In this document: positions 29,031 to 64,000 of the stretch, one piece after another
Numbering within the stretch: position 1 is the stretch's first letter
Layout: every line of letters starts with the position of its first letter
Source: Chlorophyllum brunneum
Taxonomy: Eukaryota > Basidiomycota > Agaricomycetes > Agaricales > Agaricaceae
DNA: 64,000 nt
NCBI GenBank assembly: GCA_963576785.1
Contig: OY756142.1
Span: 2,418,001 to 2,482,000 of the forward strand
Direction: 5' to 3'
Notes under the pieces: generated by a model
What the model was told of the DNA's origin: nothing
Database searches by the model: none
What the model saw: only the letters and a program-made list of their open reading frames with translations
Position numbers and translations under genes: made by a program

Positions 29031-29215
29031 TATCTCACCTTATCAGAGCTTATCTAGTATTATCTCATCTTATCTCACCTTATCAGAGCTTATCTAGTAT
29101 TATCTCATCTTATCTCACCTTATCAGAGCTTATCTAGTATTATCTCATCTTATCTAGTATTATCTCATCTCATCTAGTATTATCTCATCTTATCTGGTTT
29201 ATCTCATCTTATCCT
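29031..29215. repeat. Tandem 40-bp repeat array of GATA motifs
   Basis: A 40-bp unit (starting TATCTCACCTTATCAGAGCT) occurs three times in a row, then shorter 20-bp variants follow. On the complementary strand every unit contains several TGATAAG or AGATAAG sequences, the consensus recognised by fungal GATA zinc-finger factors. Confidence 0.9.
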
Positions 29216-36465: not shown

Positions 36466-36541
36466 TTACAACCTTAGTCTAGGACTCAGGTTGCAAGTCT
36501 TTGGATAAAGACAAGAAAGTAGAGAAAAGAAGAAGGGATCA
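36466..36541 (-). repeat. 5' LTR of G2, distal piece (continues at 40386)
   Basis: Matches 30448-30523 of the other LTR. It ends in AAGGGATCA, which is repeated as AAGGGATGA after the LINE poly(A) at 40386, the probable target duplication of LINE unit U2. Confidence 0.85.
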
Positions 36542-37917: not shown

Positions 37918-40385
37918 TCCAAGCAGGGGTTTCTGCTTAATGTGCAAATCTTTTTTGCTTCTTACTTAGTCAGCCGTTCTACTATTTACACATGGAACAG
38001 CTTTTCCTCTGACCCCTGGGGCACTGATATGGGTATTGGACAGGGCTCTGCCATGTCCCCCATCCTCTTGGGCCTCTATTTTGCCCCTCTTATAAAGATC
38101 TTTGACTTGTGGATTACCTTCCCTAGAAGTACTCTACTATCATACATTGATGATGGTACTATTGTCACCCAGGCTAAGACCTGGGACAAGAACTTGGACA
38201 CCCTCAAGGGGGTGTACATTGTTCTCTTTAATCTCTTTGTAGCATTTGCACTTGTCATGGAGTATGACAAGTCTGAACTTTTCTACTTCTCTAGGAAACC
38301 TGGAGATACTAACCCCCCCCCCCTTGACTTGGGCTTCAGTCCATTCACAGGGAACATTCCTCTTCACCCTAAGTCCTATTGGAGGTACTTGGGCTTTTAT
38401 TTCAATTGTGTCCTGAATTTCCAGGAGCACATTTGACACTATTCTACCAAGGCTCTTTCTACCATGAAAGTAATAGGGATACTTGGTAATTCCTCCTGTG
38501 GTCTGACCCCCAAGCAGAAGTGGCTCCTTTACAGGTCATGTGTCATACCCATTGTGATATATGGCTTCTGTCTGTGGTATCCTGACAGGGCTTAATGCAA
38601 GGGCCTTCTCAAATCCCTCAATACTATGTAATGTAAGGCTGCATTGTGGATCCCACCCTTTTCAATCTTTCCTTGATTGTCCAAATGCCAAGAGTGCCTC
38701 CCTACACCCTCTCTCTGTCTCTCTCTTGACCAATTGCCTTGTCAGGCAGGTCAAGGACTCTCTTATGAAAGCTGTCTCCATGCTTCTATCTCTTACTGAA
38801 CAGTTTGATCCCTGCTCTACAGTGGCTCAGCCTGCTCATTGTCTCCTGGGCTGCAAAGCAGTCCAGGTATTCTTTCACAACTCTCCTTGTTCTCGTGACA
38901 AGAGGGCCATGCATATACAGCATCTAAACAACACTTTGCATGCCAACTCTCAGATTCTCACTATAGCAATGGATGCAAGTCTACTACTACAGGGGGAATT
39001 CCAGGCAGTTTCTGCTGCCCAGATCTACCAATCAGGCCAGCATGTCTTCCAGATGAGACATGCAGCCAGTCGAGTGACAGCTCCTGATGTAGAGTTGTAT
39101 GCTATCTGGATTGCAGTTGGAAAGGCTACCAGCCTCCCTGACTACGACTTCATTGTTCTATTCACTGACTTCCCTGGTACTGCCAGGAGAGTGGTGGACC
39201 CCTCCATTCACTCTGGCTAGGCTCACTTGCTTACCATATGTAACACTCTCATGGAGTGGTTTGGGGGTCACCCTGAATACTCTCTTCATATCTGGCACAC
39301 TTACTCTTTGGAGAAATAGTCCATTCATGGTACTATACACCAGTACTATACCAAACTTCAGGTTGCTGCAGGTTCCTGTCTACAAAGCTCTCTCAACTCC
39401 CTTTGTCAGAAGGTTGTCAAATTCTGCCAGGATGTCTGGATCACTCGATTCCAGGATCCTACCTACTCAGGTAGCCAATTCATGGCTCTTGAAGGGCATA
39501 ATGGTAAGCCCCTCCAGCCTACTTACCTCCATGGAGGTTCATGGCTGCCTTCTGCCACAGCTGAGTCCAACTTGCTGTTGGCCCGCATGTGTAGGGTTAT
39601 ACTCAACCATGTGCCAATTGGGGCCTATAAGTCTCGGTTCTTCCAGGACAAACCATTTTGGTGTCCATATAGGGCTCTCTTCAAGTCTTGTATACATATT
39701 CTTACCTCTTGTAAGAGGTTTGACATTTCTAGGGGGTACCCTGCTATACCGGGTGCCCCCATCAAGTTCTTGAAGACAAACCCTCAGGTGCTCACCTTCC
39801 CATCTATTCCTCAGGGAATTGGATAACTGGCTCAGGGTAGGTGGGTTATTGTCCAGCACTAGAGAACCCCAGTGGAAGTCTGGTAAAGACGTATGGAGTT
39901 TTATGACCAGAGTTGTCCCCTTTGGCGACTAGGTGTGGTGAAGATGCCAATAGCTGCACAAATGGTGCAGCCTATTATTCTGGCAAGGGTAACCATGGCT
40001 GGGGGGCTGACTCTCAGTAAGAAGAACTCCAGGGGCTAGTAGCTAGGCTGGTAACTGGGTATGTTTCCACCATCTAGTATTTACAGTGAATTAACACCTA
40101 CTGACTGGGCCTAGTCTTTGGATTGGGTTGCTGGTTAGGGGACCTCCCTACCCACTTGCCTCCTCTGGCATCCACTCCCCTCACCCTTTGGGCTTAGGAG
40201 TAGGACATAACTCCTTCTACTGTTGGTCTTAGGCAACTGTACTTTTGCTTTGCAAGGTATAACTACTCTTTTTCTGTAGATACCCACTAGTCTACTCTTT
40301 TGTAGTCTGGCCATGGGCTCTGTTTGAGCACCATATAATAAATTGGCCTTAGGCCATGATTAAAAAAAAAAAAAAAAAAAAGATA
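37918..40385 (+). pseudogene. LINE ORF2 RT/RNase H part with 3' UTR and poly(A) (unit U2)
   Basis: RT palm: IFFASYLVSRSTIYTWNSF, GIGQGSAMSPILLGLYFAPLIKIFD, SYIDDGTIVTQAKTWD at about 38140-38190 (both Asp kept), EYDKSELFYFSRK, RYLGFYFN. Beyond 38440 frames break. RNase H-like pieces (IAMDASLLLQGEFQAVSAAQIY, TAPDVELYAIWIAVG, VLFTDFPGTARRVVDPSIHSG) are at 38960-39220, and a tail with CRYSR-like zinc residues is near 39620-39720. The 3' UTR (39830-40360) is unlike that of family A copies. It ends AGGCCATGATT plus about 20 A residues, then the AAGGGATGA target duplication. Confidence 0.85.
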
Positions 40386-45550: not shown

Positions 45551-46963
45551 TGTTAGCAAATGACCTGTTTAGATAGTCACATGATCTAGAGTGCACAGAC
45601 TATGTAGTTTTGGTATATAGGGAGTGTCCTAGCTCCCTCAAATATAAGGTTTTTACCTACTTTTGTGTCTGTGTCTGTGTTTGTGTCTGTGTTTGAGTCC
45701 TCTCTCTATTGGGGGTAGGGCATAGTGAAAGTGGCTGCAGGGAAACAGGAAGCTAGTCCAGGGGTTATGCCTTGGAGGTACACCTTCATGGCCTCTGCCT
45801 GCCCAACTAGTGGACTGTAGGGGGCCATTTACTGGGAGCACACTGAAAAAAGCTGCCCAGTTACCGAGAAGGAGCAGCCTGGCTCAAGAGGTCAAAATCC
45901 TCTGTTGGTGGGTCCCCGTAAAGATTGGGGTGTACCCATTTGAGTTGTTACCATGTGAGAGGTCTGGATTTGGGGTGGCGGTATACACAGCTTGTGGTAA
46001 GATCCTGTCCATACACTATATAGAAAGAGTGCCTCAAGTGAATAGTGGGCCAGTCCTCAGGGATACTGTGCTCTCTCAGTAGCGGAGTGTTTGCCCAAGC
46101 TAAAGGCTTTACCTCTTAGGAGGGAGGAGCAAAGTCCCCACAATATGGCCAGATGCAACACCAATATGGGAGCCTGGGAACATGCTAGGCATTCTACGGG
46201 CACATAACATCTCAAGACCCCCATCTTTGGGCCTCTATGAGCTTTATTCCCTCAAGGGGCTCCATATGTGGGCTCCTACTGCAGTTCAAACTTCCTTGTT
46301 CTCAAGGATAGTAAGAACAAGGTTCTACAGCCAATGTACCTCCATGGAGGTTCTTGGCTTCCTTTTTTTCTCTCTCAGTCCATTGTGACAAGAGCAAACT
46401 GTGCCATTCTCGGGCATGTGCCAACTGGAGAGTATTGCTCCTGGTTTCATCCTCTAGAGCCAATTGGCTGTGAGTATGGGGCTCCTTTGGAGACTTGCAC
46501 TCATATCTTGTGCTCTTGTCCATTATACAAGAGACATTGTGGCCTACCAGTCTCTATTAACCAGCTAGTATCTTTTCTTGGGTGCAACCCTGCTGCATTT
46601 GTGTTCAAGTCCAACACACCGCTTATGGGAGTTGGATAATATGACATGGCCCCTGCTAGCTTCCCACATCTTCAATGTGTGTAGAAGTTAATTGCAAATT
46701 GATGCATACTCTCCCTAGGGAGGGGAGGCTAGGGGTTGCTCATTGTTCTGGTCTGGAATTCACACATCCATACATGTTTCTGCAACTGTTTACCCAGACT
46801 GCTGACAGACAGTCTATTTTGGCCAGGGAAGAGCCCATCTTTGATTACCCTCTATCATATGTACATGTCATAGTAGATACAGGTGTGATCATGCACCACC
46901 CTAAACATGATGATTTAAAAAAATAAAAATAAAAAGTCCTCTCTCTATTCTCCTTCCTTAACA
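45551..46963 (+). repeat. LTR of family T, split by LINE unit U6
   Basis: Begins TGTTAGCAAATG at 45551, includes TATATAGGG near 45615 and a GTGTCTGTGT-type repeat, and is interrupted at 45710. The remaining 14 bp (CTCCTTCCTTAACA) are at 46950-46963. Net LTR length is about 174 bp, shorter than the solo copies because the GATA-rich part is largely missing. Confidence 0.75.
45711..46935 (+). mobile_element. Leader-LINE chimera U6
   Basis: Flanked by a perfect 14-bp duplication GTCCTCTCTCTATT (45697-45710 and 46936-46949). It starts inside the leader (GGGGGTAGGGCATAG), has one GCTGAAAAAAGC motif near 45845, reaches the leader boundary TCAAGGGGCTCCATATGTGGG at about 46272, and is fused to the RNase H C-terminal part of family A ORF2. 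The leader frame runs in frame into SNFLVLKDSKNK .. CEYGAPLETCTHILCSCPLYKRH (ORF 46268-46636). The family A 3' UTR and an imperfect A-rich tail end it. Confidence 0.92.
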
Positions 46964-47290: not shown

Positions 47291-49085
47291 TTTTTTTTTT
47301 TTTTTTATCAACATGTTTAAGGTGGTGCGCGATTGCAGTCCACCTGTATCTACTATGATATGCAGAGTACAAAGAGTAGTTTATGAAGATTGGCTCTCCC
47401 CTGGCTGCACTAGACCACCAACAGGTAGTCTGGGTAAACAGTCATGGAAACACACATGGATGCACAAATCCTAGACCAGAAAAATGAGCAACCCCTAGCC
47501 TCCCCTCCCTAAGGAGAGTATGTGTCAATTCACAATTAACTTCTACACACATCAGAGATGTGGGAAGCTAGCAGGGGCCATGCCATGTTATCCAACCCCT
47601 GCAAGCAGTATGTTGGCCTTAAACATGAATGCAGAGGGATTGCATTTAAGAAAAGATACCAGCAGGCCACGACATCTCTTGTACAATGGACAAGAGCACA
47701 AGATATGAGTGTGGGTCTCCAAAGGAGCCCCACACTTGCAGCCAATTGGCTCTAGAGGATGGAACTGGGAGCAGTACTCTCCAGTTGGCACATGCCCGAG
47801 AATGGCACAGTTTGCTCTCATCGTAATGGACTGAGAGGAAAAAGAAGGAAGCCAAGAACTATCATGGAGGTATATTGGCTATAGAACTTTGTTCTTACTA
47901 TCCTTGAGAACAAGAAAGTTTGAACTGCAGTAAGAGAAGTCCTAGAAAGAGACTTTTCAGGCCTTCTGAATAGTTGCTACATTGAGTTTATGCAGCAAGT
48001 CAATAGATGTTGCTGGACTACATCCAGTGGCAACTTGGAGATTAGGGGCATATAAATGCATCTCCTGATGAATGGACCATTTTGCCGACGACAATGGACC
48101 AGAAAGTGAGGGAGTGGTCAGGATGATTCCTGAACCACTCCAAGAGAAGACGACATACAGCTAGGGAATGTCCCTGACCAGAGTGTATGGATGGGTCGAG
48201 AGCTCGTTTGGCAGAACCAATCGAGTCTGTAAAGACTGCAATGTGTACAGCCTCAGAAACTGCCGCAGCAGTTCCCAAGGCCATATAAATGGTGAAAAGT
48301 TCAGCATCTGGGGCTATAACTTTGCCAGCTGGATGTTGCAATGCACAAAGCAAACACGTCCCCCTGTAAATGTGGGCAGCCAAGACTACCTGGTAATCTC
48401 CAATCAGTGGTAGACTTGTGTCTGTTACTGCATAGACAACCTGTCTATCCTCCCGATACCCATGAAGAGTATTGTTGAGCAAATCCACCTGACAACCCAC
48501 AGGGTTTCCACTGAGTGAGGCATCATATGTTTTATAAGTCACCTGGGCCGCATAGTGGTCCAGGAGATGAGAACCTGGCAACACTTTGAGCACAAATGGC
48601 TCAAACATCTCTATTAAGTCTGGCAAACAAGAGTTTGCCTCTGTGACCGGCCCCTTGATCTTGACTGTCTGAGTAGGGGTCATGAGAGTGATCGATCTTG
48701 GGTGTGGAACACAACTCCCTATATACTGACACCCCATGATGGAGTGAACAGGGTGGTTCTCAGAAAGGGTGGCTACCCTGTGAATGGTATGGGTAGCCAG
48801 TTTCTTGAGATGGAGGTGGATGGGGATGAGGTCAGCTAAGGCTTCAGCTCCTCCGGTAGGGCTGGTGTGGAATCTGCCCACACAGGGGTCGAATCCTTGC
48901 TTCCGTAAAATTGCCAACAACATATTGTGGTTGAGCAAAGAAAAGAACTGAGCAATGTCAAAAGTGACAATGCTAGTCTTGAGGCCCTTGGCCTACCCTG
49001 CATGAACAATGTGGGTTAGGAGCATCCCAGCATAATCAGTGGACCTCTGACAGATACCACTAAGCTGATTTGGATGGAAGATTCC
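47291..49085 (-). pseudogene. LINE L8, 3' half: thumb, RNase H, zinc tail, 3' UTR
   Basis: Poly(T) at 47291-47307 marks the 3' end. Above it lie the family A 3' UTR, the C-terminal zinc region (CKCGAPLETHTHILCSCPLYKRC, 47760-47690), and a 298-codon frame (48938-48042) with TSPTGGAEALADLIPI, VYAVTDTSLPLIGDYQVVLAAHIYRG (RNase H Asp), APDAELFTIYMALG and IAVFTDSIGSAKRALDPSIHSGQ. A long deletion joins CVGRFHTSPTGG near 48870, removing much of the RT palm and thumb. Interrupted at 49085 by U7; the 5' half continues at 50753. Confidence 0.88.
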
Positions 49086-50752
49086 GTCGGCCTAATGGTC
49101 GAGTGGTTTGGGTGTAGGCTTAATTCCTACCAGGCTGCTTGGCTAGAAGGTCCTGGGTTCGAAACCTGTGGAAGGGGATTTATTCTCAACCGTGGGAAGT
49201 ACCAGTGTGCGAGGCGTGGTTGCTTAGCAATATTCCTGGGTGACACCGGATTAGGTTGTGTGGTCCTGTTTGGCATTGTTTGGTGCTGTCACAGGCTAGC
49301 ATGGGAGTTGTCATACCCAGCTACATAGCAAGTCACATAGTGACGTCACACTGTCACGGTGTGACCCAGCTGTATGCATTGCCCAAGTCCAATATTGGCC
49401 AAAGGCGGTGGTGCCCTAATGCCGGGGCCTAACTTGGAAGGATTACCTAAGCCACTGCTGGAGATAGGGCATTATAAGAAGGGGAATGTCGTGATAATAG
49501 TCCGACTCAGAGCGTGCTGAAAAAAGCCACCGAGATAGGATACCCCTCCCGGTCCGCTTTGGCATAGTTCCGGTAGTTAGTAGATATAACCCAATCTCCA
49601 GATTGAGGATGCTGACTAAGTTGGCTTAAAATAACCTCAGGACCAATCTGGTAGTGGTGTCTGCAAGGTGTAGATCTCAGACAGTTAAGCACAGGGATCC
49701 GGGCCGTAAGGCATACCGAACTGGCTGCTGAGGAACGGGAAGCAACTCCGGGGTAGCGCCTGGGTGAAGTTGTGGGCCGTAGCAGGTGATGTACCGGGGC
49801 GTGCTAAAAAAAGCCGCCGGTTATCAGAGAATGCTCACCTGGCTCGAGAGGACTAAATCCTACATTGGTTGGCCTGGTACAGGAAAAATAGCCAGGTTCC
49901 AGCTCAAGTTGATTCCACGTTGCCATTGGCTAAGGCTGGTGGTAAGAGACCTCTCAAGAGGCTCCGTAGACGGGTTTACAAGTTGCCGCTGGACGTCGTC
50001 CAGTCACATCTATTGATTCGCTGCGTAAAGTCAATGTAGCAACCATTCAGAAGGCCTGGAAAGTCACTTTCCAGGACTCCTCTTATCGAGGTTCTAACTT
50101 CCTTGCTCTCAAGGATAGTAAGAACAAAGTTTTACGGCCAACGTACCTCCATGGGGGTTCTTGGCTTCCTTCTTTTCCCTCTCAGTCTATTGCGACAAGA
50201 GCGAACTGTGCCATCCTCAGACACACTCTAACCAGCAAGTATCGCTCCCGGTTCCATCCTCTAGAGCCTGTTGGCTGCGAGTGTGGGGCTCCTTTGGAGA
50301 CTCGCACTCATATCTTGTGCTCTTGTCCTCTGTACAAGAGACGTCGTGGCCTGCCGGTCTCTATTGACCAGCTGGTAGGTTTCCTTAAGTGCAATCCTTC
50401 TGCGTTTGCATTTAAGTCCAACACACCGCCTGTGGGAGTTGGATAACGCAGCGCAGCCCCTGCTAGCTCCCCACGTCTCTGATGTGTGTAGGAGTTAATT
50501 GCGAATTGACGCATACTCTCTCTAGGGAGGGGAGGCTAGGGGTCACTTGTTTTTCTGGTCTAGGATTCGCACGTCCATGTGTGCTTCCGCGACCGTTCAC
50601 CCAGACTGCCTGTCGGTGGTCTAGTTTGGCCAGGGGAGAGCCAATCTTCAATTACCATCACTAGTGTAGCCTACATGTCACAGTAGATACAGGTGGACTG
50701 CGATCGCGCACCACCTTAAACATGTTGATTTAAAAAAAAAAAAAAAAAAAAA
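49086..50752 (+). mobile_element. U7: tRNA-headed leader joined to LINE tail (giant SINE-like unit)
   Basis: Flanked by a 14-bp duplication (GGATGGAAGATTCC 49072-49085; GGATGGAAGACTCC 50753-50766). Order inside: tRNA-like head with A and B boxes (49086-49185); a body of about 300 bp, unlike the other leaders; two leader-type segments with GCTGAAAAAAGCC and GCTAAAAAAAGCCGCC motifs (49517, 49806); the leader boundary GAGGCTCCGTAGACGGG at about 49976; the family A RNase H end with CECGAPLETRTHILCSCPLYKRR (about 50275-50345); the family A 3' UTR; and a 22-bp poly(A). CpG is abundant, so it is young. The architecture (pol III-type head, body, LINE-derived tail) is that of a SINE, but much longer. 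Confidence 0.85.
49096..49166 (+). promoter_or_regulatory. Putative pol III internal promoter (A and B boxes) of U7
   Basis: TGGTCGAGTGG at 49096-49106 fits the tRNA A-box consensus, and GGTTCGAAACC at 49156-49166 fits the B box exactly. The 50-bp spacing and the YGGTCGAGTGG form resemble tRNA-Leu or tRNA-Ser. A full cloverleaf could not be closed by hand, so this is called tRNA-related rather than a tRNA gene. Confidence 0.65.
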
Positions 50753-52275: not shown

Positions 52276-52652
52276 TTTTTTTTTTTTTTAAATCGTCATG
52301 TTTAAGGTGGTGTGCAGTTGCAGTCCACCTGTATCTACTGTGACATGTAGGCTACAAAAAGAGGGTAATCGAAGATTGGCTCTCCCCTGGCTGAACTAGA
52401 CTGCCGACAGGTGGTCTGGGTGAATGGTCATGGAAACACGCACGGGCGCGTGAATCCTAGACCAGAAAAATGAGCAACCCCTAGCCTCCCCTCCCTAGGG
52501 AGAGTATGCGTCAATTTGCAATTAACTCCTACACACGTCGAAGACGTGGGGAGCTAGCAGGGGCCACGTCGCGTTATCCAACTCCTGCAGGCGGTGTGTT
52601 GGACTTAAACGCAAACACAGAAGGATTGCACTTAAGGAAAACTACCAGCTGG

Positions 52653-55184
52653 TCAATAGAGACCAGCAGGCCACGACGTCTCTTGTACAGAGGACAAGAG
52701 CACAAGATATGAGTGCGAGTCTCCAAAGGAGCCCCACACTCGCAGCCAACAGGCTCTAGAGGATGGAACCGGGAGTGATACTCGCTGGTTGGTGCGTGCC
52801 CGAGGATGGCATGATTTGCTCTTGTCGCAATGGGACTGAGAGGGGAAAGACGGAAGCCAAGAACCCCCATGGAGGTACGTTGGCTGTAGCAGTTTGTCCT
52901 TACTATCCTTGAGAGCAAGGAAGTTCGAACCACAATAAGAGAAGTCCTGGAAAGTAACTTTCCAGGCCTTCTGAATGGTTGCCACATTGAGTTTATGCAG
53001 TGAATCAATAGTCATCGCTGGATGATGTCCAGTGGCGACCTGAAGGTCGGTGGCAAATAAATGCACCTCCTGATGAATAGACCACTTTGCTGAAGATGGA
53101 ACAGACCAGAAAGTGAGAGAGCGGTCAGGACGATCCCTGAACCACTCCAACAAGAGACGACAAACAGCCAGGGAGTGTCCCTGGCCAGAATGTACGGACG
53201 GGTCAAGAGCTCGCTTGGTGGAACCAATCAAGTCTGTAAAAACCGCAATATGTACAGCCTCAGAGACTGCCGCAGCAGTCCCCAAGGCCATACGAATGGC
53301 AAAAAGTTCAGCATCTGGGGCTGTAACCTTGCCAGCTGGGTGACGCGTTGCCCGAAGCAAACGTGTCCCCCTATAAATGTGGGCAGCAGAAACTGCCTGG
53401 AAGTCTCCAACCAGTGGCAGACTTGCGTCTGTCACTGCATAGACAACCTGTCTATCCTCACAATACCCACGGAGGGTATCATTGAGCAAATCCACCTGAC
53501 GACCTGCAGGGTTTCCACCGAGCGAGGCGTCATACGTTTTGTAAGTCACCTGAGCCGCATAGCGGTCCAGGAGACGAGAACCTGGGGATGCTTTGAGCGC
53601 AAATGGCTCGAACGTCTCCGTTAAGTCTGGCAAACGAGAGTTTGCCTCTGTGACTGGCCCCTTGACCTTGACCACCTGCGCGGGAGTCATGAGGGCGATT
53701 GATCTGGGGTGTGGAACACATCCCCCTATGTACTGATGCCCCATAATGGAGTGGACAGGGTGATTCTCAGAAAGTGTGGCAACCCTGTGGACGGCACGGG
53801 CAGCCAGCTTCTTGAGATGAAGATGGATGGGGATGAGGCCAGCCAAGGCCTCAGCTCCTCCGGTAGGGCTGGTGCAGAATGCACCAGTGATCCACAATGC
53901 AGCCCTATGCTGCATGGTGTTAAGTTGTTTCAGAAGGGCCTTGTTATGGGCACCCTCATAAAACCACAAACAAAACCCATACGTAGCGATAGGCACTACA
54001 CACGAGCGATAAAGGGTCCTCTTTTGAGCAGGAAGAAGACCTCGTGAAGAGTTACCAAGCATGCCCATGGCCTTGACCGTGGACAGAGACTTGGTAGCGT
54101 AATGTTGAACATGCTCTTTGAACGTAAGAGCACGATCGAAGAAAAAACCCAAGTACCTCCAATGGGTCTTAGGGCGTAACGGAGTGTCACCAGTATGGGG
54201 AGCATACCCCAAATCCAGCGGTGGGTTATCATCTCCCCGTTTACGGGAGAAATGAAAAACTTCGGACTTGTCGTGCTCGACGGCAAGCCCAAATGCAGTA
54301 GTCAAGCGATAAATAATCTGGTACGCCTGCTTGAGGCACACCAAATTAGGCTCCCAAGCTTTAGCTTGGGCGATGGCAAGGCCATTGTCAACATATGAGA
54401 GCAAGCTGCTCCCAAGGGCAATTGCCTCCCTATCATAAAGCTTCATGAAGGGAGCAAGATAAAGGCTGGAGAGGACAGGAGAGAGCGAAGAGCCCTGACC
54501 GACCCCAACGTCCGCCTGCCTGAGATCAGACTTGTGGTTCCCCCACGCATACTGCGTAGAGCGGCCAACCAAATAAGAGGCAAAAAATCTACTCACACAG
54601 GGGTCGAATCCTTGCTTCCGTAGAATTGCCAACAACATACTGTAGTTGAGCAAAGGAAAGAACTGAGCGATATCAAATGCGACAATGCTAGTCTTGAGGC
54701 CCTTGGCCCACCCCGCATGAACGATGTGGGTTAGGAGCATTCTAGCATCATCAGTGGACCTCTGACGGATGCCACTGAGCTGATTTGGACGAAAAACTCC
54801 ATGTTTGACAGAGTCAAACTGGAGGCAATTTGAGATCATTTTCTCAATGAGTTTACCAAAGGTGTTCAGGAGCACAATGGGCCTGAACGCCTTGGGCGTT
54901 GAATAGGATGGCTTGCCTGGTTTCAGTATGATAACCAACAAGCTTTTCTTGAAGTGGGATGGCCAATAACCCACATGCATGCAGGCATTTGCTATCCCGA
55001 TGAACAGCCAAAGGACATCAGGGTCCTCGGTAATCTCCTTGAGGTGGGTCCACGTTACATAGTCCGGCCCCGGGGTGGACACACCCGAGCATGTGCTAAG
55101 GGCATCCATCAGCTCTAAGGCTGAGAAATGGACCCACTCCCTAGCCGGAAGGCTTGGCAATGGATCAAGAACAGAAATATCCAC
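52653..55184 (-). CDS. LINE RT-RNase H protein of U3 (843 codons, active site altered)
   Basis: Long uninterrupted frame with RT blocks FSALELMDALSTCSGVSTPGPDYVTW, KAFRPIVLLNTFGKLIEKM, GIRQRSTDDARML, IVAFDIAQFFPLLNYSML, GVGQGSSLSPVLSSLYLAPFMK and RYLGFFFDRAL. The active site reads SYVDNGLAIAQ (about 54400-54370), the second catalytic Asp having become Asn. RNase H: VYAVTDASLPLVGDFQAVSAA, APDAELFAIRMALG, VAVFTD-type block, HQEVHLF. Near 52835 one extra base moves the C-terminal zinc region (CECGAPLETRTHILCSCPLYKRR) into another frame (53008-52574). The leader frame upstream is out of frame with it. Probably inactive despite its length. Confidence 0.9.
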   Translation of the reverse strand: MDISVLDPLPSLPAREWVHFSALELMDALSTCSGVSTPGPDYVTWTHLKEITEDPDVLWLFIGIANACMHVGYWPSHFKKSLLVIILKPGKPSYSTPKAFRPIVLLNTFGKLIEKMISNCLQFDSVKHGVFRPNQLSGIRQRSTDDARMLLTHIVHAGWAKGLKTSIVAFDIAQFFPLLNYSMLLAILRKQGFDPCVSRFFASYLVGRSTQYAWGNHKSDLRQADVGVGQGSSLSPVLSSLYLAPFMKLYDREAIALGSSLLSYVDNGLAIAQAKAWEPNLVCLKQAYQIIYRLTTAFGLAVEHDKSEVFHFSRKRGDDNPPLDLGYAPHTGDTPLRPKTHWRYLGFFFDRALTFKEHVQHYATKSLSTVKAMGMLGNSSRGLLPAQKRTLYRSCVVPIATYGFCLWFYEGAHNKALLKQLNTMQHRAALWITGAFCTSPTGGAEALAGLIPIHLHLKKLAARAVHRVATLSENHPVHSIMGHQYIGGCVPHPRSIALMTPAQVVKVKGPVTEANSRLPDLTETFEPFALKASPGSRLLDRYAAQVTYKTYDASLGGNPAGRQVDLLNDTLRGYCEDRQVVYAVTDASLPLVGDFQAVSAAHIYRGTRLLRATRHPAGKVTAPDAELFAIRMALGTAAAVSEAVHIAVFTDLIGSTKRALDPSVHSGQGHSLAVCRLLLEWFRDRPDRSLTFWSVPSSAKWSIHQEVHLFATDLQVATGHHPAMTIDSLHKLNVATIQKAWKVTFQDFSYCGSNFLALKDSKDKLLQPTYLHGGSWLPSFPSQSHCDKSKSCHPRARTNQRVSLPVPSSRACWLRVWGSFGDSHSYLVLLSSVQETSWPAGLY

Positions 55185-55230
55185 AGCTCGGCCAGAAGCC
55201 GAGTTGTAGGTATTGTGGAGTGCGTCCCAC

Positions 55231-56661
55231 CTGCGTACGGAGCCCCTTGAGGGAATAAAGCTCCTAGAGGCCCAGAGATGGGGGTCTTGAGATGTCGTGT
55301 GCCCATAGAGTGCCCAGCATGTTCCCAGGCTCCCATATTGGTGTTGTATCTGGCCATGTTGCGGGGACTTTGCCCCTCCCTCCTAAGAGGTAAAGTCTTT
55401 AGCTTGGGCGAACATCCCACTACTGAGAGAGCACGGTATCCCTAAGGACCGGCCTGCCGTTTGCTTGAGGCATCCTTCCTATATGGTGCATGGACGGGAT
55501 CTCACTGCTTGACGTGCACGCCACCACCCCAAAACCAGACCTCTCGCGTGGTAACAACTCAAATGGGTACACCCTGATCTTCACGGGGACCCACCGACAG
55601 AGGATTTTGACCTCTCGAGCCGGGCCGCTCCTTCTTAGTAACCAGGCAGCTTTTTTCAGTGCACTCCCAGTAAACGGCCCGCTACGGTCCACTAGTTGGG
55701 CAGGCAAAGGCCACAAAGGCATACCTCCAAGGCACGACCCCTGGACTAGCTTCCCGTTCCCCTGCAGCTGCTTTCACTATACCCTGCCCCCAGAGGAGGC
55801 GACTTGTCTTTGGGCACGGATCCACATGCTAATACTGGCAGGGATCTCTGTCTCGCAGGGGGCGCTACCAGGGTGGTGTTCACATTGGATTACCTAAGCA
55901 ACCCACAGAACGGATTACTTAAGCATTCCGTGGAACGGGCACCAATCAACCCGAGTTTCCCCGAGTCAACCCGAACCCGCCCATGCCCTGGAGTTTGGCG
56001 TATCCCTACTAACGACCAGGCACTACCCCCAGAGGGGTTCCCAAAGGCATGGCAACACTGGTGGGGGGTGGCCTGTCCTTTCAGTCGGCTTGTTATCACT
56101 CTGTTCCCCCTATTATCGTCCCCTATCCTTTCAGTCCCTTTCGGGTATGACAGAGTGGCTTTTTTCAGCATGCTCCCCACCGATGTGCAAGCACAATTGG
56201 GGGTGGGCCTGGATGTCCGTCGTCAGCCGGTATAGCCCAGCCTCGAGATACTAGCCAGACTTGAGCTGCAGCAGGGGTTAAAACCGCCATGCAAACCCTA
56301 TACGGGACTGCAAGCCCATCTAATTGGTAGAAGGGCCGCCACTACTGACGACCCAGTGAGTGCAAGCGAGCGAGGTGGCCAGTATTCCAGCCTTTAAGAC
56401 CCTTTACCAAGGGGCCACCTCGTCGATCTGTGCATATAGGCATCAGTCAGATGAACGGTGGGGATATGCCCACCTTTAATCACCTTTACCAAGGGTGCGC
56501 CACCTATTGACCGACTAACATTGCCACCTGGACCGCCCCCCTACAGCCAGCGAAGGCTCAGAAAAGACACAAGCCCATGAGAGAGAGCCCGAGAAATGAA
56601 TGGTGTGATGAGGAAAGAGAAGTGGAAAAGTGATGGTGGTGGTAACAAGTCAAGGAGCGAT
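55231..56661 (-). repeat. LINE leader module, U3 copy
   Basis: About 1,430 bp. GCTGAAAAAAGCC-type motifs near 56165 and 55655 (about 510 bp apart). Ends CAAGGGGCTCCGTACGCAGG at 55231. Highly similar along its whole length to 57141-58560 and 60416-61848. The short frame near the end starts ATGGCCAGATAC and reads NTNMGAWEHAGHSMGT. Confidence 0.92.
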
Positions 56662-57140
56662 GCCCTGTGAGGCTATCCAGTTTAACAGACAGCCCTATCA
56701 TGGTATGGACTCCCTTTGGGATGTCCTCCACTTGATGTACAACTCTGCTGCTGATTGGCAGTGCGACACATCTGTTCTTGACCCTCTTTTTCGGTGTTGG
56801 AGCTCACGGAGGCCTTGTCCTCTTGCTCTGATACATCCTCTCCAGGGCCGGACCATGTTACATGGTCCCACCTCAAGTACATTGTCATTGATGAAGATTG
56901 TTTGACAGTGTTCCTGTGCCTGGCCAATGCCTGCCTTACAGTGGGTCATTAGCCCCACAGCTTCAAGGAGTCGCTCTCGGTTATCATTCCGAAACTGGGG
57001 AAGCCCTCCTACTCTATTTCCAAGGCATTCAGGCCTATTGTCCTCCTGAACATGCTTGGTAAATTGGTTGAGAAAATGCTTTCCAACCATATCCAGTTTG
57101 ATGCCATTAGATATGACATCTTTCATCCCCATCAACTCAC
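56662..57140 (+). pseudogene. LINE RT N-terminal fragment of a divergent family (L12)
   Basis: Plus strand: PCEAIQFNRQPYHGMDSLWDVLHLMYNSAADWQ, TSVLDPL, then in other frames SVIIPKLGKPSYS-, KAFRPIVLLNMLGKLVEKMLSNHIQFDAI. It aligns block for block with family A RT but is clearly divergent in amino acids, so it is another LINE lineage. It is truncated at both ends by leader starts (56661 minus, 57141 plus). Confidence 0.8.
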
Positions 57141-58560
57141 ATCGCTCCTTGACTTGTTACCACCACCATCACTTTTTCCACTTCCTTTCCCCATCGCACC
57201 TTTCATCTCCTGGGCTCTCTCTCATGGGCCTGGGTCTTTTCTGAGCCATCGCTGGCTGTAGGGGGGCGGTCCGTGTGGCAACGTTACTTGGTCGATGGGC
57301 GGCGCGCCCTTGGTAAAGGCGATTAAAGGTGGGTATATCCCCACCATTCATCTGACTGACGCCTATACGCACAGGTCGACGAGGCAGCCCCTTGGTAAAG
57401 GGTCTTAAAGGCTGGGATACTGGCCACCTCGCTCGCTTGCGCTCGCTGGGTCGCCAGTGGTGGCGGCCCTTCTATTAATCCAATGGAGTTGCAGTCCCGT
57501 ATAGGGTTCGCATGGCAGTTTTAACCCCTGCTGCAGCTCAAGTCCAGCTAGCATCTCGAGGCTGGGTTATCCTGGCTGACGACGGACGTCCGGGCCTACC
57601 CCTAATCGTGCTTGCACGTCGGTGGGGAGTGTGCTGAAAAAAGCCGCCCCGTTGCACCCGAAAGGGACCGAAAGGATAAGGGATGGTAATAGGGGGTATG
57701 GAGGTGAAAACAAGCCGACCGAAAGGACAGGCCACCCCCCACCAGTGTCGCCATGCCTTCGGGAACCCCTCTGGGGGTAGCACCTGGTCGTTAGTAGGGA
57801 TACGCCAAACTCCAGGACACCGGGCGGATGCGGATTAACACGGGGAAACTCGGGTTGATTGGCGCTTGTCCCGCGGATTGCTTAGTAACCCGTTCCGCGG
57901 GTTGCTTATGTGATCCAATGTGAACACCACCCTGGTAGCGCCCCCTGCGAGACAGAGATCCCTGCCAGTATTAGCATGTGGATCCGTGCCCAAAGACAAG
58001 TCGCCTCCTCTGGGGGCAGAGTATAGCGAAAGCGGCTGCGGGGGAACGGGAAGCTAGTCCAGGGGTCGCGCCTTGGAGGTACGCCTTCGTGGCCTCTGCC
58101 TGCCCAACTAGTGGACCGTAGCGGGCTGTTTACTGGGAGCGCGCTGGAAAAAGCCGCCCGGTTACTGAGAAGGAGCAGCCTGGCTCGAGAGGTCTAGATC
58201 CTCCGTCGATGGGTCTCCGCCAACAACGGAGTGTACCCGTTTAAGTTGATACCACGTAAGTAGTCTGGATTTGGGGTGGCGATATGCGCAGTCATGTGGT
58301 GAGATCCCGTCCGTGCACCATATAGGAAGGATGCCTCAAGCAAACGGTGGGCCGGTCCTCAGGAATACCGTGCTCTCTCAGTAGCGGGGTGTCTGCCCAA
58401 GCTAAAGGCTTTACCTCTTAGGAGGGAGGGGCAAAGTCCCCGCAACATGGCTGGATGCGACACCAATATGGGAGCCTGGGAACATGCTGGGCATTCTACG
58501 GGCACATATCGTCTCAAGACCCCCATCTCTGGGCTGCTAGGAGTTTGCCTGCAAGGGACT
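57141..58560 (+). repeat. LINE leader module, U4 copy
   Basis: Begins ATCGCTCCTTGACTTG. GCTGAAAAAAGCCGCC near 57634 and GCTGGAAAAAGCCGCC near 58142. Ends GCAAGGGACTCCGTGTACGGG, after which ORF1 sequence follows. It holds no long ORF of its own except the terminal short frame starting at ATG 58447. Confidence 0.92.
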
Positions 58561-60319
58561 CCGTGTACGGGCTCTCGACCTATCCCAGCTCCTGGTGCAG
58601 AAGCCAGGGCTTCGTCCCTCCCCCCGTCTTCCCCTCCTCCCGCCTCTCCAGAGGCTATGGAACAGGACGACCAGGAGGAGCCCACTGCCGCCCCCCTCTC
58701 TATCCTGGGCATCAATATTAGTGCCAGAGAGGACGCCGATGCGATCCAATGGTCGCTCGAGATTGTTGCCGACTTCATGAAGACGGCGCATCTCATTCCC
58801 CAGGAGGACGCTCCATCCTTCCATCCCATCGCCTCTCGACTATCTGAGATAGTCCAGACGGTCGCATCCTCCCCTATGTGGCGTGAAACCTACACAGGGG
58901 TGAGTGACTCTCTCTCCCTGAGGGACTTGATCGCTTCGGCGTTTCCTGCTCTCCCAGTGGTGACTTATAGGCCCCCGGCTACCCCTCCCAGGGTACCAGG
59001 ACCTTCTACCCTCGCCCCCCCCCCAGCGCAGAGTCCCTGTGCAGGAGGAGGACGATCTTATGGACCCGGAGAAGACTCCAGTCAAACGCCCGCGCACAGA
59101 CCCTAAGGGGAAGGCGCCAGTCCGACCTGTTAAGGCTCCTACTAAGCCTCAGGTCCCCTATGAGAGGCCCTCTGGTCCTCCTCCCTCCACGATCACTTCG
59201 AAGCCCAAGCCAGGACAGAAGGCTTACTCGGCTGCAGCGAAACAACCGGCCGCGTCCAAGTCTGGGGCGGAGCCGCTTTCTGCATTGAAAGCGGCCTTCC
59301 CCCATCTCTCCACAGAGCAGCTCCTCAACCTTCATTCACAGGCTGAGGCTGCGAAGCAATCCCCCTCGTCGAATGCTCGCCCTAAGAAGCCAGCATTCAC
59401 GATTCCCGGACCGTCGCGAAAGCAGGTCCTAGTTTCCTATGAAGACAAGTCGAACGCCTCGGCTGGTCTCCATACTCTTACCCAGCAGGCCTGTAAGGCG
59501 CTGAAGGCTGGGAGAAGCTCTCTGATCGTGGAAGGTGCCACGCTCGCATATGATGGCTATTCCATGGCCACCAACAAACTCGCCACAACCAAGGACATTG
59601 AGATCCTTAGGGCGTTGGTTGAACGTCTGTCCCCTCCAGGAGCCCCCTTCTGGATTGGACTCCCATCTTCGGTGTCGTACCTCCGTGTGGTTGACGTCCC
59701 GTACCTCAAGAACTCTGCCGCTGGAGTTCCGTGTACTCCAGCAGACGTCGAGAAGGTTCTTACCTCGTCGGTGCATGCTCCCCTCATCAGCCTGAAGGGT
59801 CCCCCTAGGCTGGTGCGCAACTCCAGGATGTCTGACTCTTGTACGGCGTTTTTTGACATCTGGGACTCCATGAGGGGTACCCGAGCTCTCGGTCTTCTGA
59901 ATAAGAAGATCATGTTTGGGAACAAGCAGTGCGTGATACTCTCTGCTAACCCTCGTCGTAACGAGTCGCTGTGTACCCACTGTTACAAGTGGGGCCACGC
60001 CTCCTCCTGGTGCAAGGCCGATGGCCCAGCATGTCCCGACTGCGGTGGTGCGCACTCTCGTGCTAATCACCGCACTTTTGCTCTGTGTTGTAAGGGGCAA
60101 CCGAAGGCTACGCCTCCGGTTCCTGCTACCCCTACTGGTCAACCGTGCCCCCATCCTCCTCACTGCTGTAACTGCAAGAAGGAGCATCCCGCTGATTCCA
60201 GGAAGTGCACTTTCTGGAACCACAAACATGACCGGGCCTGGCTGACTGCCCGCTATCGAGAGGTGCGTGACAGACGTCGTCACTCTCCCATCCCCCCTCA
60301 TAACCTCCCTTATGCCTAG
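58447..60319 (+). CDS. LINE ORF1 (Gag-like, CCHC) with leader-derived N-terminus, one frame change
   Basis: RNA-binding ORF1p of a second LINE family. From ATG 58447 the leader frame (MAGCDTNMGAWEHAGHSTGT) leads without a stop into MEQDDQEEPTAAPLSILGINISA and a Pro-rich stretch up to a run of ten C (59015-59024). The remaining protein continues in the next frame from about 59030 (EEDDLMDPEKTPVKRPRTDPKGKAP) for over 420 codons to TAG 60317-60319. Knuckles: CTHCYKWGHASSWC (CX2CX4HX4C), CPDCGGAHSRANHRTFALCC, CCNCKKEHPADSRKC. The lower half is intact and CpG-rich. The C run is a single base out of phase, which could be a mutation, an assembly homopolymer error or frameshifting. Confidence 0.88.
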
Positions 60320-60415
60320 GAACAACCTGGGCCATCTGGAGGGCATTAGGGTATTCTCATTTAACGTCGCAAAATCATATATATACGTTGATGTACTGCT
60401 CGAGAAGTTGAAATC
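60312..60415 (+). pseudogene. LINE ORF2 start of U4, cut by U5
   Basis: ATG at 60312-60314 overlaps the ORF1 stop (ATGCCTAG). The frame reads MPRNNLGHLEGIRVFSFNVAKSYIYVDVLLEKLKS, an endonuclease opening with the Asn of the FN/QN block, divergent from family A (VYQQNCNKNYDLVDTLLEDLK). After 34 codons it is interrupted at 60416 by the leader of U5. Confidence 0.82.
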
Positions 60416-61848
60416 ATCGCTCCTTGACTTGTTACCACCACCATCACTTTTTCCACTTCCTTTCCCCATCACACCTTTCATCTCCTGGGCTCTCTCTCAT
60501 GGGCCTGGGTCTTTTCTGAGCCATCGCTGGCTGTAGGGGGGCGGTCCGTGTGGCAACGTTACTTGGTCGATGGGCGGTGCGCCCTTGGTAAAGGCGATTA
60601 AAGGTGGGTATATCCCCACCATTCATCTGACTGACGCCTATACGCACAGGTCGACGAGGCGGCCCCTTGGTAAAGGGTCTTAAAGGCTGGGATACTGGCC
60701 ACCTCGCTCGCTTGCACTCGCTGGGTCGTCAGTGGTGGCGGCCCTTCTACTAATTAGTTGGGCTTGCAGTCCCGTATAGGGTTCGCATGTGGGTTTTTAC
60801 CCCTACTGCAGGTCAAGTCTGGTTAGTATCTTGAGGCTGGGCTATACCAGCTGACGACGGACATCCAGGCCCACCCCCAATCGTGCGTACATGTCGGTGG
60901 GGAGCGTGCTGAAAAAAGCTGCCCTGTCGTACCCAAAAGGGACCGAAAGGATAGGGGACGATAATAGGGGGAACGGAGTGATAACAAGCCGACCGAAAGG
61001 ACAGGCCACCCCCCACCAGTGTCGCCATGCCTTCGGGAACCCCTCTGGGGGTAGCACCTGGTCGTTAGTAGGGATACGCCAAACTCCAGAGCACGGGCGG
61101 GTTCGGGTTGACTTGGGGAAACTTGGGTTGATTGGCGCCCGTTCCGTGGAATGCTTAAGTAATCCGTTCCGCGGGTTGCTTAGGTAATCCAATGTGAACA
61201 CCACCCTGGTAGCGCCCCCTGCGAGACAGAGATCCCTGCCAGTATTAGCACGCGGATCCGCGCCCAAAGACAAGTCACCTCCTCCGGGGGTAGGGCATAG
61301 CGAAAGCGGCTGCGGGGGAACGGGAAGCTAGTCCAGGGGTCGCGCCTTGGAGGTACGCCTTCGTGGCCTCTGCCTGCCCAACTAGTGGACCGTAGCGGGC
61401 CGTTTACTGGGAGCATGCTGAAAAAAGCCGCCCGGTTACTGAGAAGGAGCGGCCCGGCTCGAGAGGTCAAAATCCTCTGTCGGTGGGTCCCTGTGAAGAT
61501 CGGGGTGTACCCATTTGAGTTGTTACCACGCGAGAGGTCTGGTTTTGGGGTGGCGGCGTGCGCAGTCAAGCGGTGAGATCCCATCCGTGCACCATATAGG
61601 AAGGATGCCTCAAGCGAACAGCGGGCCGGTCCTCAGGGATACCGCGCTCTCTCAGTAGCAGGGTGTTCACCCAAGCTAAAGGCTTTACCTCTTAGGAGGG
61701 AGGGGCAAAGTCCCCGCAACATGGCCAGATGCAACACCAATATGGGAGCCTGGGAACATGCTGGGCATTCTACGGGCACACGATGTCTCAAGACCCCCAT
61801 TTCTGGGCCTCTAGGAGCTTTATTCCCTCAAGGGGCTCCGTACGCGGG
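60416..61848 (+). repeat. LINE leader module, U5 copy
   Basis: Full leader from ATCGCTCC at 60416 to CTCCGTACGCGGG at about 61848. Motifs GCTGAAAAAAGCTGCC near 60907 and GCTGAAAAAAGCCGCC near 61416. Richest in CpG of all copies, including CGCGG runs, and so probably the youngest. Confidence 0.92.
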
Positions 61849-64000
61849 TAACTTTAGACGTGCTAAGAAGCGCACAAAGCGCAACTTCTTTGATGCTCGC
61901 ATCGAGGAGATTGCTTCTACAAACAAGCGACCGTGGGACCTTATGGAATGGGTCCAAAAGCGGAAGCTTCCACCCTGCGAGGCTATCCAGTACAATGGAG
62001 AGCCGTGTCACACGCTCCCGGATCTCTGGGACGCACTCCACAATACCTACAACTCGGCTTCTGGCCGAGCTGTAGATATTTCTGTTCTTGATCCACTGCC
62101 AAGCCTTATGGCGCGGGAGTGGGTCCAATTCTCAGCCTTAGAGCTGATGGACACCCTTAGCGCTTGCTCAGGTGTGTCCGCCCCGGGGCTGGACCATGTA
62201 ACATGGACCCACCTCAAGGAGATCACCGAGGACCCCGATGTCCTTCGGCTATTCATCGGGATAGCCAATGCCTGCATGAGTGTGGGTCATTGGCCGTCTC
62301 ACTTTAAGGAAAGCTTGTCGGTTATCATTCCGAAGCTGGGCAAGCCGTCCTACTCAACACCCAAGGCGTTCAGACCCATTGTGCTCTTGAACACCTTCGG
62401 TAAACTCATCGAGAAGATGGTCTCGAATCGCCTCCAGTTTGACTCTGTCAAGCATGGAGTTTTTCATCCAAATCAGCTCGGTGGTATCCGTCAGAGGTCC
62501 ACTGACGATGCTGGGATGCTCCTAACTCACATCGTTTGTGCGGGGTGGGCCAAGGGCCTCAAGACTAGCGTTGTCGCGTTTGACATCGCTCAGTTCTTTC
62601 CTTCACTCAACCACTCTATGTTGTTGGCAATTTTACGGAAGCAAGGATTCGACCCCTGTGTGGGCAGATTCTTTGCCTCTTATTTGGTGGGCCGCTCTAC
62701 GCAATATGCGTGGGGAGACCACAAGTCCGACATTAGGCAGGCAGACGTTGGGGTCGGTCAGGGCTCTTCGCTCTCTCCTGTCCTCTCCGGCCTCTATCTC
62801 ACCCCCTTCATGAAACTTTATGATAGGGAGGCAATCGCTCTTGGGAGTACTTTACTCTCATACGTCGACGATGGCCTTGTCATCGCCCAAGCTAAAACTT
62901 GGGAACCTAATTTGGTGTGCCTCAAGCAGGCGTACCAGATTATTTATCGCCTGACTACTTCGTTTGGGCTTGCCGTCGAGCACGACAAGTCCGAAGTTTT
63001 TCACTTCTCCCGTAAACGGGGAGATGACAACCCACCGCTGGATCTGGGGTATGCTCCCCATACCGGCGATACTCCGCTTCGCCCTAAGACCCATTGGAGG
63101 TACTTGGGCTTTTTCTTCGATCGCGCTCTTACGTTTAAAGAGCACGTTTGGCATTATGCTACTAAGTCTCTGTCCACGGTCAAGGCCATGGGCATGCTTG
63201 GTAACTCTTCACGAGGCCTTCTTCCTTCTCAGAAGAGGACTCTGTACCGCTCATGCGTAGTGCCCATCGCTACGTATGGGTTTCGACTCTGGTTCTATGA
63301 AGGTGCCCGTAACAAGACCCTTCTGAAGCAACTTAACACTATGCAGCGCAAAGCTGCATTGTGGATCACTGGTGCATTCCGCACCAGCCCTACCGGAGGA
63401 GCTGAAGCCTTGGCTGGCCTCATCCCCATCCACCTTCATCTCAGGAAGTTAGCTGCCCGTGCCGTCCACAGGGTGGCTACGCTTTCTGGTCATCACCCTA
63501 TTCGTTCCGTTATGGGGCGTCAGTATATAGGGGGTTGTGTTCCACACCCCAGATCGATTACTCTCATGACCCCCGCCCAGGCGGGTAAGGTCAAGGGGCC
63601 GGTCACGGAGGCAAACTCTCGCTTGCCAGATCTAACGGAGACATTCGAGCTGTTTGTGCTCGAGGCGTTGCCAGGTTATCGTCTCATGGACCGCTTCGCG
63701 GCCCAGGTGACTTTTAAAATGTATGACGCCTCGCTCGGTGGAAACCCTGCGGGCCGTCAGGTGGATTTGCTCAACGATACCCTTCGTCGGTATTGTGAGG
63801 ATAGACGGGTTGTCTACACAGCGACGGACGCAAGTCTGCCACTGGTTGGAGACTTCCAGGCAGTTTCTGCTGCCCATGTTTATAGGGGGACACGCTTGCT
63901 TCATGCAACGCGTCACCCAGCTGGCAAGGTTACAGCCCCAGATGCTGAACTCTTTGCCATTCGTATGGCCTTGGGTACTGCTTCCGCAGTCTCTGAGGCT
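61721..64000 (+). CDS. Leader-RT-RNase H fusion ORF of unit U5, intact to window edge
   Basis: One open frame of 760 codons running off the window. It starts at ATG 61721 in the leader (MARCNTNMGAWEHAGHSTGT), crosses the leader boundary in frame (..APYAG/NFRRAKKR.. at about 61849) and continues as LINE RT: FSALELMDTLSACSGVSAPGLDHVTW, KAFRPIVLLNTFGKLIEKM, GIRQRSTDDAGML, VVAFDIAQFFPSLNHSML, GVGQGSSLSPVLSGLYLTPFMK, the active site SYVDDGLVIAQ at about 62857-62890 with both Asp, EHDKSEVFHFSRK and RYLGFFFDRAL. RNase H then begins (TATDASLPLVGDFQAVSAA; DAELFAIRMALG with Asp and Glu). There is no endonuclease domain and no ORF1. It is the only RT in the window free of stops and with all visible catalytic residues. 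The fused N-terminal 43 residues may or may not be translated. Confidence 0.9.
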   Translation, partial: MARCNTNMGAWEHAGHSTGTRCLKTPISGPLGALFPQGAPYAGNFRRAKKRTKRNFFDARIEEIASTNKRPWDLMEWVQKRKLPPCEAIQYNGEPCHTLPDLWDALHNTYNSASGRAVDISVLDPLPSLMAREWVQFSALELMDTLSACSGVSAPGLDHVTWTHLKEITEDPDVLRLFIGIANACMSVGHWPSHFKESLSVIIPKLGKPSYSTPKAFRPIVLLNTFGKLIEKMVSNRLQFDSVKHGVFHPNQLGGIRQRSTDDAGMLLTHIVCAGWAKGLKTSVVAFDIAQFFPSLNHSMLLAILRKQGFDPCVGRFFASYLVGRSTQYAWGDHKSDIRQADVGVGQGSSLSPVLSGLYLTPFMKLYDREAIALGSTLLSYVDDGLVIAQAKTWEPNLVCLKQAYQIIYRLTTSFGLAVEHDKSEVFHFSRKRGDDNPPLDLGYAPHTGDTPLRPKTHWRYLGFFFDRALTFKEHVWHYATKSLSTVKAMGMLGNSSRGLLPSQKRTLYRSCVVPIATYGFRLWFYEGARNKTLLKQLNTMQRKAALWITGAFRTSPTGGAEALAGLIPIHLHLRKLAARAVHRVATLSGHHPIRSVMGRQYIGGCVPHPRSITLMTPAQAGKVKGPVTEANSRLPDLTETFELFVLEALPGYRLMDRFAAQVTFKMYDASLGGNPAGRQVDLLNDTLRRYCEDRRVVYTATDASLPLVGDFQAVSAAHVYRGTRLLHATRHPAGKVTAPDAELFAIRMALGTASAVSEA

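Follow-up and report, generated by a model that had tools for sequence, protein, structure and literature searches.

The window analysed here, a stretch of 64,000 nucleotides (nt) of contig OY756142.1 (contig C4 below), contains repeated copies of a leader of about 1.43 kb, each running at one constant 3' boundary into a different point of long interspersed nuclear element (LINE) sequence. How did one leader come to stand in front of so many LINE fragments? The initial annotation proposed that an independent RNA, sharply delimited at its 3' end, had been captured repeatedly by truncated LINE cDNAs. The underlying observation is confirmed, with corrections, and extends beyond the window; the reading of repeated capture is supported by target duplications that enclose leader and LINE together and by differing junctions among nearest-neighbour leaders. 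The leader reads as a copy of a discrete, structured and apparently non-coding RNA. The favoured explanation, to which a probability of roughly 0.6 is assigned, is that this RNA was joined by its own 3' end to a truncated LINE and inserted with it as one unit, most plausibly through template jumping by the LINE reverse transcriptase.

Sampling and numbering

Copies of the leader family, LD1, were located by self-comparison of the window and reading of the boundaries. The assembly, 38.9 Mb in 14 contigs, was scanned for further copies, and the best 40 of 162 candidates were scored, giving 48 leader matches. A total of 204 kb of C4 was read to sort out the LINE families. Coordinates to the left or right of the window are given in window numbering; L-numbers, C7a and C7b denote loci elsewhere in the assembly.

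The leader and its parent LINEs

LD1 is 1434 nt long and both of its ends are fixed (5' CATCGCT, 3' CGGG). Among the 33 leader matches of at least 500 nt, 27 begin within nt 1–8, and the same 3' boundary is present in 43 of the 46 LD1 3' ends read. The 3' tail is GTACGCGGG (type 1), GTGTACGGG (type 2) or an apparent decayed form of either; the type labels are the authors' own assignments, and L057 could be type 2.

Two LINE families accompany the leader, LINE A (6.5 kb) and LINE B (6.3 kb), which resemble each other at ∼68% over the reverse-transcriptase region. Copies whose 5' ends are intact (eight of LINE A and four of LINE B) start with CATCGCTTCTT or a close variant, and none of these 12 has a leader in front, so that neither parent LINE has LD1 as its 5' end. 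A full-length parent with the leader contiguous to LINE sequence, named by the initial annotation as the finding that would contradict capture, was thus sought and not found in the sequence read. LD1 itself starts with CATCGCTCCTTG. LINE A, LINE B and LD1 all open with CATCGCT(T/C)CTT, while the remainder of their 5' regions differ; this common start may represent a shared initiation site or a requirement of the insertion process. A telomerase template in the leader was also considered and discarded, no CCCTAA, TTAGGG, CTAACCC or CCCTA being present in the majority sequence.

The tabulation of junctions called for by the initial annotation was carried beyond the window: 45 of the 46 LD1 3' ends read enter LINE A or B in the sense orientation, and the remaining one (L052) is cut by a later insertion. 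Three ends were left out of the junction set, namely L052, L035 and a reverse-strand copy on C4 at 58844, in which LD1 lies inside a tripartite unit and the boundary was mis-set by the script; L055, a leader cut at 1140, is also outside the set, and L053 was kept although its boundary was probably mis-set in the same way. The 43 junctions used (36 into LINE B and seven into LINE A) comprise 29 LINE breakpoints, or 34 exact sites if the leader types are kept apart. At L035 (C11:886743–889135) the leader ends at nt 1393 and is joined to LINE B at a GGG common to both, a microhomology-type joint unlike the other junctions.

A fixed leader end with varying downstream joins is also what a splice donor would give, and spliced LINE transcripts have a precedent in the SpIREs of human L1. 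If the leader were a 5' exon of a LINE transcript spliced to various acceptors, however, the LINE sequence before the breakpoint should resemble an acceptor; it ends in CTC, CTT and the like, with AG in none of 34 contexts. No locus was found with a leader upstream of an intact LINE (12 full-length LINEs and 46 leader 3' ends), and cis-splicing is considered extremely improbable.

Target duplications and repeated joining

The clearest unit, U5, lies inside a copy of LINE A. Its structure is GAGAAGTTGAAAT, leader, LINE B from B3126 to the poly(A) and GAGAAGTTGAAAT again, after which LINE A resumes. Because one duplication encloses both parts, the leader and LINE B of U5 arrived together. Among 11 LD1 units inspected by eye, six (U5, L039, L040, L043, L044 and L048) have duplications enclosing leader plus LINE, with one mismatch in L040 and two in L039.

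These enclosing duplications bear on the notion that the leader is an independent element, such as a solo long terminal repeat (LTR), that inserted into LINEs, or conversely that LINEs target a site within it. Both leader ends are fixed and the leaders of U4 and U5 flank an ORF1 (open reading frame 1) region like two LTRs, as this notion would predict, but the duplications do not enclose the leader alone, the LINE following the leader is in the sense orientation in 45 of 46 cases, and no single LINE copy was seen to continue across a leader in 20 loci and in stretches of C4, C12 and C7. This reading is scarcely credible.

The relationships among leaders indicate many separate joining events from a common source, since in 25 of 30 cases a leader and its nearest neighbour have different junctions (the exceptions being C7a, C7b, L030, L031 and L042). 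In the leader tree, a poorly resolved clade of eight type-2 copies has seven different junctions, with B5773 occurring twice, and the two B4352 copies, L038 and L042, are not sisters, each grouping with a copy of another junction. L039 and L040 have a common junction and yet are not nearest neighbours. Breakpoints are reused, for example B5592 by type 1 and B5594 by type 2. Formation of a few chimeras followed by their amplification as non-autonomous elements would explain a minority of units: C7a/C7b and L030/L031 each have the same junction and near-identical leaders (0.8 and 0.6% different, respectively), and only these two pairs look like copies of one chimera. As a general explanation, amplification is very unlikely given 29 breakpoints in 43 junctions and the discordance between leader relationship and junction.

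L030 and L031 (C11, around 804662–810802) are inverted copies of one chimera in which the target duplications are swapped, as inversion by recombination between the two would give.

Breakpoint motif

The initial annotation expected the LINE breakpoints to be random; instead, they sit at a sequence motif. The LINE bases just upstream of the LD1 breakpoint, which are absent from the chimera itself and were read from intact LINE copies, follow (A/T)CT(C/T), and the first base kept is mostly C or T. At type 1 sites the agreement is 20/26 for A/T at −4, 21/26 for C at −3, 24/26 for T at −2, 23/26 for C/T at −1 and 22/26 for C/T at +1. The exact form CTY|Y (the bar being the breakpoint) occurs at 15 of 29 breakpoints versus 0.9 expected and at most three times at any other offset from −10 to +10, while at least three of the four motif positions agree at 25 of 29 breakpoints versus 5.7 expected. 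The motif was derived from these same junctions; when those of the 34 exact sites that include a unit from the window are set aside, it is still found at 11 of the remaining 28, against a background of 3.3%.

Leaderless LINE truncations showed the exact motif in 0 of 18 cases and the loose form in four. This control comprises 18 of 38 rows, the others being at a locus edge (eight), joined to LD2, the second leader family described below (three), short LINE B tails (five) or continuations after nested insertions (four), and it is impure in that B5696 coincides with a leader breakpoint, B5348 is 2 nt from one and A6305 follows masked bases. CTY was likewise not evident by eye at LINE A and B target sites (59 LINE 3' ends, for some of which no target was identified). 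Since neither leaderless truncations nor LINE target sites display the motif, it goes with leader joining and not with truncation or endonuclease cutting. An origin in the LINE endonuclease nick had been considered, as the U5 target resembled CTC|, but was rejected on the absence of CTY from LINE target sites.

The two leader types differ by one base in their placement: T occupies −2 in 24 of 26 type 1 sites versus one of eight type 2 sites (Fisher test, 5.0 × 10−5, or 2.1 × 10−4 with L057 relabelled). The 40 nt upstream of the junctions exceed random sequence in stability, with 0.5% of 400 random sets being as low, while the stability of the stretch from −60 to 0 is not beyond random (16%). 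Compared with unused CTYY sites, junction sites show a weak excess of unpaired bases (P = 0.036). Pairing of the leader 3' GGG with CUY was tried as a general rule; it fits LD1 but fails LD2, and the GGG is already paired inside the leader. A guide sequence elsewhere in the leader was also set aside, as only short complementary stretches were found, as chance would give.

RNA fold at the leader boundary

In whole-leader folding, the last leader bases are predicted to pair with CCACGCG ∼310 nt upstream. In U5 the two strands of this closing helix are at 61526–61532 (CCACGCG, with one bulged A) and 61843–61848 (CGCGGG, ending exactly at the leader boundary), both on the plus strand, and a hairpin closed by GGAGC and GCTCC occupies 61814–61839 (plus strand) near the 3' end. 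Over the 21 pairs of this 3' domain in 25 aligned leaders, 97.1% of the cells are paired, compared with at most 51.7% in slid controls. Eight pairs change on both sides, including a change from A-U to U-G or C-G for which CpG decay offers no explanation, and the last G of the leader is paired with C in all 25 aligned leaders. On the whole-leader fold, CpG decay may account for much of the two-sided change. In the test of the 3' domain, two of five measures were not clearly beyond shuffled sequences (33 and 145 of 500), and the stability of the U5 domain is not above that of shuffles (z = 1.13; 87 of 100 fold as well).

The LD2 family keeps the closing helix in letters of its own, CCACGUU/GACGGG and CCAUGUC/GAUGGG, as read by eye. 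The boundary is therefore the closing point of a conserved RNA domain, as a discrete donor RNA would show. Searches of Rfam 15 with 55000–64000 (E up to 1) and 48900–50100 (E up to 5) produced nothing above threshold; there were three sub-threshold matches in all, none in LD1 and one in LD2 at 2.5.

A second leader family

LD2 was recognized in U7, where it occupies 49086–49974 (plus strand, 889 nt), and five copies were aligned. Outside the 3' element, which is of the same kind as that of LD1 (...CCCTCAAGGGGCTCCGTAGACGGG), it matches LD1 only at leader positions 488–505, 869–936 and 971–1062, with 77–80% identity over the latter two. Its head appears to resemble a leucine transfer RNA (tRNA): ARAGORN predicts tRNA-Leu (taa) in one of the five copies, with none in U7, and boxes A and B are discernible by eye. 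LD2 is likewise joined to LINE A or B, and its six 3' ends make five different joins in place of the fixed short tail expected of a tRNA-derived short interspersed nuclear element (SINE). U7 has a target duplication of 14 nt with one mismatch (GGATGGAAGAYTCC; 5' copy at 49072–49085, plus strand, and 3' copy from 50753). Past the window, on the minus strand from 127199 to 123383, a tripartite unit LD2-LD1-LINE B, with LD2 joined at about nt 241 of LD1, is enclosed as a whole by a single duplication.

The four readable LD2 sites are CCGA|Y (two copies), GCGA|C, TCGT|C and TCGA|C, giving CGW|Y; the last of them lies in LD1 and was aligned by eye with three of 12 positions mismatched, and the junction of L006 was unreadable. 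CG at −3/−2 is present in all four LD2 sites versus none of 34 LD1 sites (Fisher test, 1.4 × 10−5, or 1.3 × 10−4 without the by-eye site). On these four sites, the captured RNA influences where joining occurs, besides the LINE template or enzyme.

Such a dependence is what might be expected if the RNAs were joined before reverse transcription, with the LINE RNA cut at the motif, its 3' piece ligated or trans-spliced to the leader 3' end, perhaps under direction of the leader, and the chimera then retrotransposed like a messenger. The motif varies with the leader family (CTY for LD1, CGW for LD2) and sits in the LINE bases that are lost, the leader 3' end closes a conserved fold, and the one-base offset between types 1 and 2 would also be accommodated; moreover, ligation has been considered for mammalian U6/L1 chimeras (PMC13174262). 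Against this, the LD2 evidence consists of four sites, searches of two stretches brought no known ribozyme or other Rfam family above threshold, nothing points to a ligase or nuclease, and a similar motif in the Magnaporthe chimera MINE was ascribed by Gogvadze et al. (2007; PMC2104539) to pausing of the enzyme. Prior joining of the RNAs is accordingly regarded as possible but rather doubtful.

Proposed mechanism

Template jumping is preferred as the first choice because most features of MINE recur here with different sequences. Leader RNA, which would have existed as a free molecule, would be attached in front of a truncated copy of LINE A or B during or just before retrotransposition. The LINE reverse transcriptase would start on the LINE RNA at the poly(A), stop just 3' of (A/T)CU(C/U), move to the 3' end of the leader RNA and copy through to the leader 5' end, and the chimera would be inserted as one unit with one target duplication. 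Two leader families would serve in this role, one that starts like the LINEs (LD1) and one with an apparently tRNA-like head (LD2).

Several observations weigh against this proposal. A few junction sites do not fit the motif, and no enclosing duplication was seen by eye in U1, U3 or U4. Neither a solo leader nor a source gene was seen among the best 40 of the 162 leader candidates scored, and none of the 43 junctions used joins a leader to an intact LINE 5' end. The motif itself also puts the proposal under strain, as simple enzyme pausing predicts neither the one-base offset between LD1 types 1 and 2 nor the dependence of the motif on leader family.

A more speculative variant, considered unlikely, is that the leaders act as RNA parasites and themselves select where they attach, the shared structured 3' domain recognizing a family-specific motif in the LINE RNA and becoming covalently joined to it. 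If this were so, a fresh LINE 3' end would be borrowed for each insertion and no tail of its own would be needed by the parasite, and the WEIRD RNA of the Magnaporthe chimera would be another member of the class.

Units in the window

The initial annotation gave seven units with the same leader and boundary. Six of these, U1–U6, carry LD1, while the seventh, U7 (placed at 49976), belongs to LD2. The exact last leader bases are 11464 (minus strand), 37917, 46272, 55230 (minus strand), 58571 and 61848; for U4, the annotated position 58560 lies ∼11 nt early. The LINE point joined does differ each time, as noted originally, but more than one LINE is involved, with family A in U1, U2 and U4 and family B in U3, U5, U6 and U7.

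On the minus strand, U1 consists of an old leader copy (11464–12915, ∼80% identical to U5) and LINE A beginning at A3820 (11030–11463). The U2 leader (36540–37917, plus strand) begins at about leader nt 63 and is followed by LINE A from A3932 to its 3' end (37918–40377, plus strand). In U6 (plus strand) the leader is 5'-truncated (45711–46272, leader nt 872–1434) and LINE B runs from B5592 to its 3' end (46273–46935), and in U7 LINE B extends from B5487 to its 3' end at 49975–50752 (plus strand). U3, on the minus strand, has a full-length leader (55230–56662) and LINE B from B3304 to its 3' end (52276–55229).

U4 and U5 are nested and both are on the plus strand. The U4 leader (57140–58571), with a type 2 tail, is joined to LINE A from about A364 in the ORF1 region (58572–60414); this LINE is interrupted by U5 and resumes at 64987, past the window. 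In U5, the 5' copy of the target duplication (60402–60414) precedes the reference leader, which has a type 1 tail (60415–61848), and LINE B from B3126 fills the window from 61849 to 64000 and continues to 64986; the 3' copy of the duplication follows the poly(A) before 65000, past the window. The LINE A sequences flanking U4 (57137–57140 versus 69367) point in opposite directions, and their positions in LINE A almost coincide (A3774 and A3764), a pattern suggestive of a further inversion following insertion.

Other features of the locus

Among the matches listed, leaders and LINEs are clustered, most contigs having a single block and C7 two groups, a distribution that suggests pericentromeric regions. 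The second open reading frame (ORF2) of the LINE in U3 is open over 909 residues and matches the RVT_1 domain; its best named relatives are from Agaricales (Cyclocybe, Candolleomyces and Psilocybe), pointing to a probable agaric host, and an initially considered kinship with Mucor and Grem-LINE1 was dropped when these relatives emerged.

A separate repeat family has four copies, near −8700 to −7750 (left of the window), at 86152–86925 and 170870–171830 (right of it) and on C12 at about 1850520–1851483, that are alike over 785–979 nt at 78–85%. It includes the 3'-terminal 65 nt of LINE B and a poly(A), joined at B6198 every time, and is a conventional non-autonomous LINE partner. The window also contains a broken Ty1/copia-like element (19880–22884) with matches to Pol_BBD, gag_pre-integrase and RVT_2, each in a separate frame, and a 40-nt unit repeated in tandem about four times (29031–29213, 93% matches), which adjoins a predicted tRNA-Asn (29307–29380).

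Comparison with known systems

A tRNA-derived SINE consists of a tRNA-like head, a body and one short fixed LINE-like tail. LD2 is similar in having an apparently tRNA-like head and a body and in its seeming dependence on a LINE 3' end; by contrast, the LINE portions attached to LD1 and LD2 measure hundreds to thousands of nt and begin at varying junctions.

Among RNA-LINE chimeras, those of U6 and other RNAs with mammalian LINE-1, for which ligation and template switching have both been considered, share with the present units an RNA joined in the sense orientation 5' of a truncated LINE and accompanied by duplications (PMC13174262). As that source describes them, they mostly involve small known RNAs, whereas here the modules are of 0.9–1.4 kb and their joining follows a motif. 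In Drosophila, R2 jumps to tRNA and U12 RNA, and R2/R1 hybrid SIDEs occur (PMC3414825). Like the units described here, these have tRNA or U12 sequence at the 5' end, or a fixed 5' RNA module combined with the 3' end of another LINE; as presented there, however, SIDEs are families with their own fixed structure, whereas the LINE breakpoint here varies from copy to copy.

The closest parallel is MINE (WEIRD-MGL chimeras) of Magnaporthe grisea, in which WEIRD, a full-length non-coding RNA of 1.1 kb (1113 nt), is fused to 5'-truncated copies of the MGL LINE (Gogvadze et al., 2007; PMC2104539). That study describes 33 chimeras at 28 sites, some used twice, with the consensus GCC|A/U, target duplications of 10–20 bp, a tripartite copy and no solo WEIRD, and template switching at pause sites is proposed. 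The correspondence is extensive: a non-coding module of ∼1 kb with fixed ends stands in sense before 5'-truncated LINEs, the joining sites being numerous and including hot spots, target duplications surround the chimera, a motif immediately precedes the LINE breakpoint, a tripartite copy exists and no solo module was seen, in the present case among the candidates scored. MINE, as described there, involves one RNA with one LINE and a SINE; here there are two RNA families, two LINE families and a covarying fold at the boundary, and in place of GCC|A/U the motif is CTY|Y or CGW|Y according to the RNA. The parallel lies in the features described; in length the modules differ, WEIRD having 1113 nt (PMC2104539) versus 1434 nt for LD1 and 889 nt for LD2.

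The phenomenon is thus MINE-type chimera formation, known in kind; what is new is the presence of two RNA families, each with its own junction motif, on the same LINE templates, together with a structured boundary. No second fungal chimera of this kind besides that of Magnaporthe was found in searches of open-licence PMC papers. The present locus, apparently from a basidiomycete, adds a second example of a long non-coding sequence encountered only as the 5' part of LINE chimeras, and what was described in Magnaporthe is thus probably not peculiar to a single species. The covarying fold gives RNA biologists an object for searches and experiments, and the occurrence of two RNA families with different motifs on the same templates, which sets this system apart from MINE, makes it testable whether the enzyme, the LINE RNA or the captured RNA picks the site of joining.

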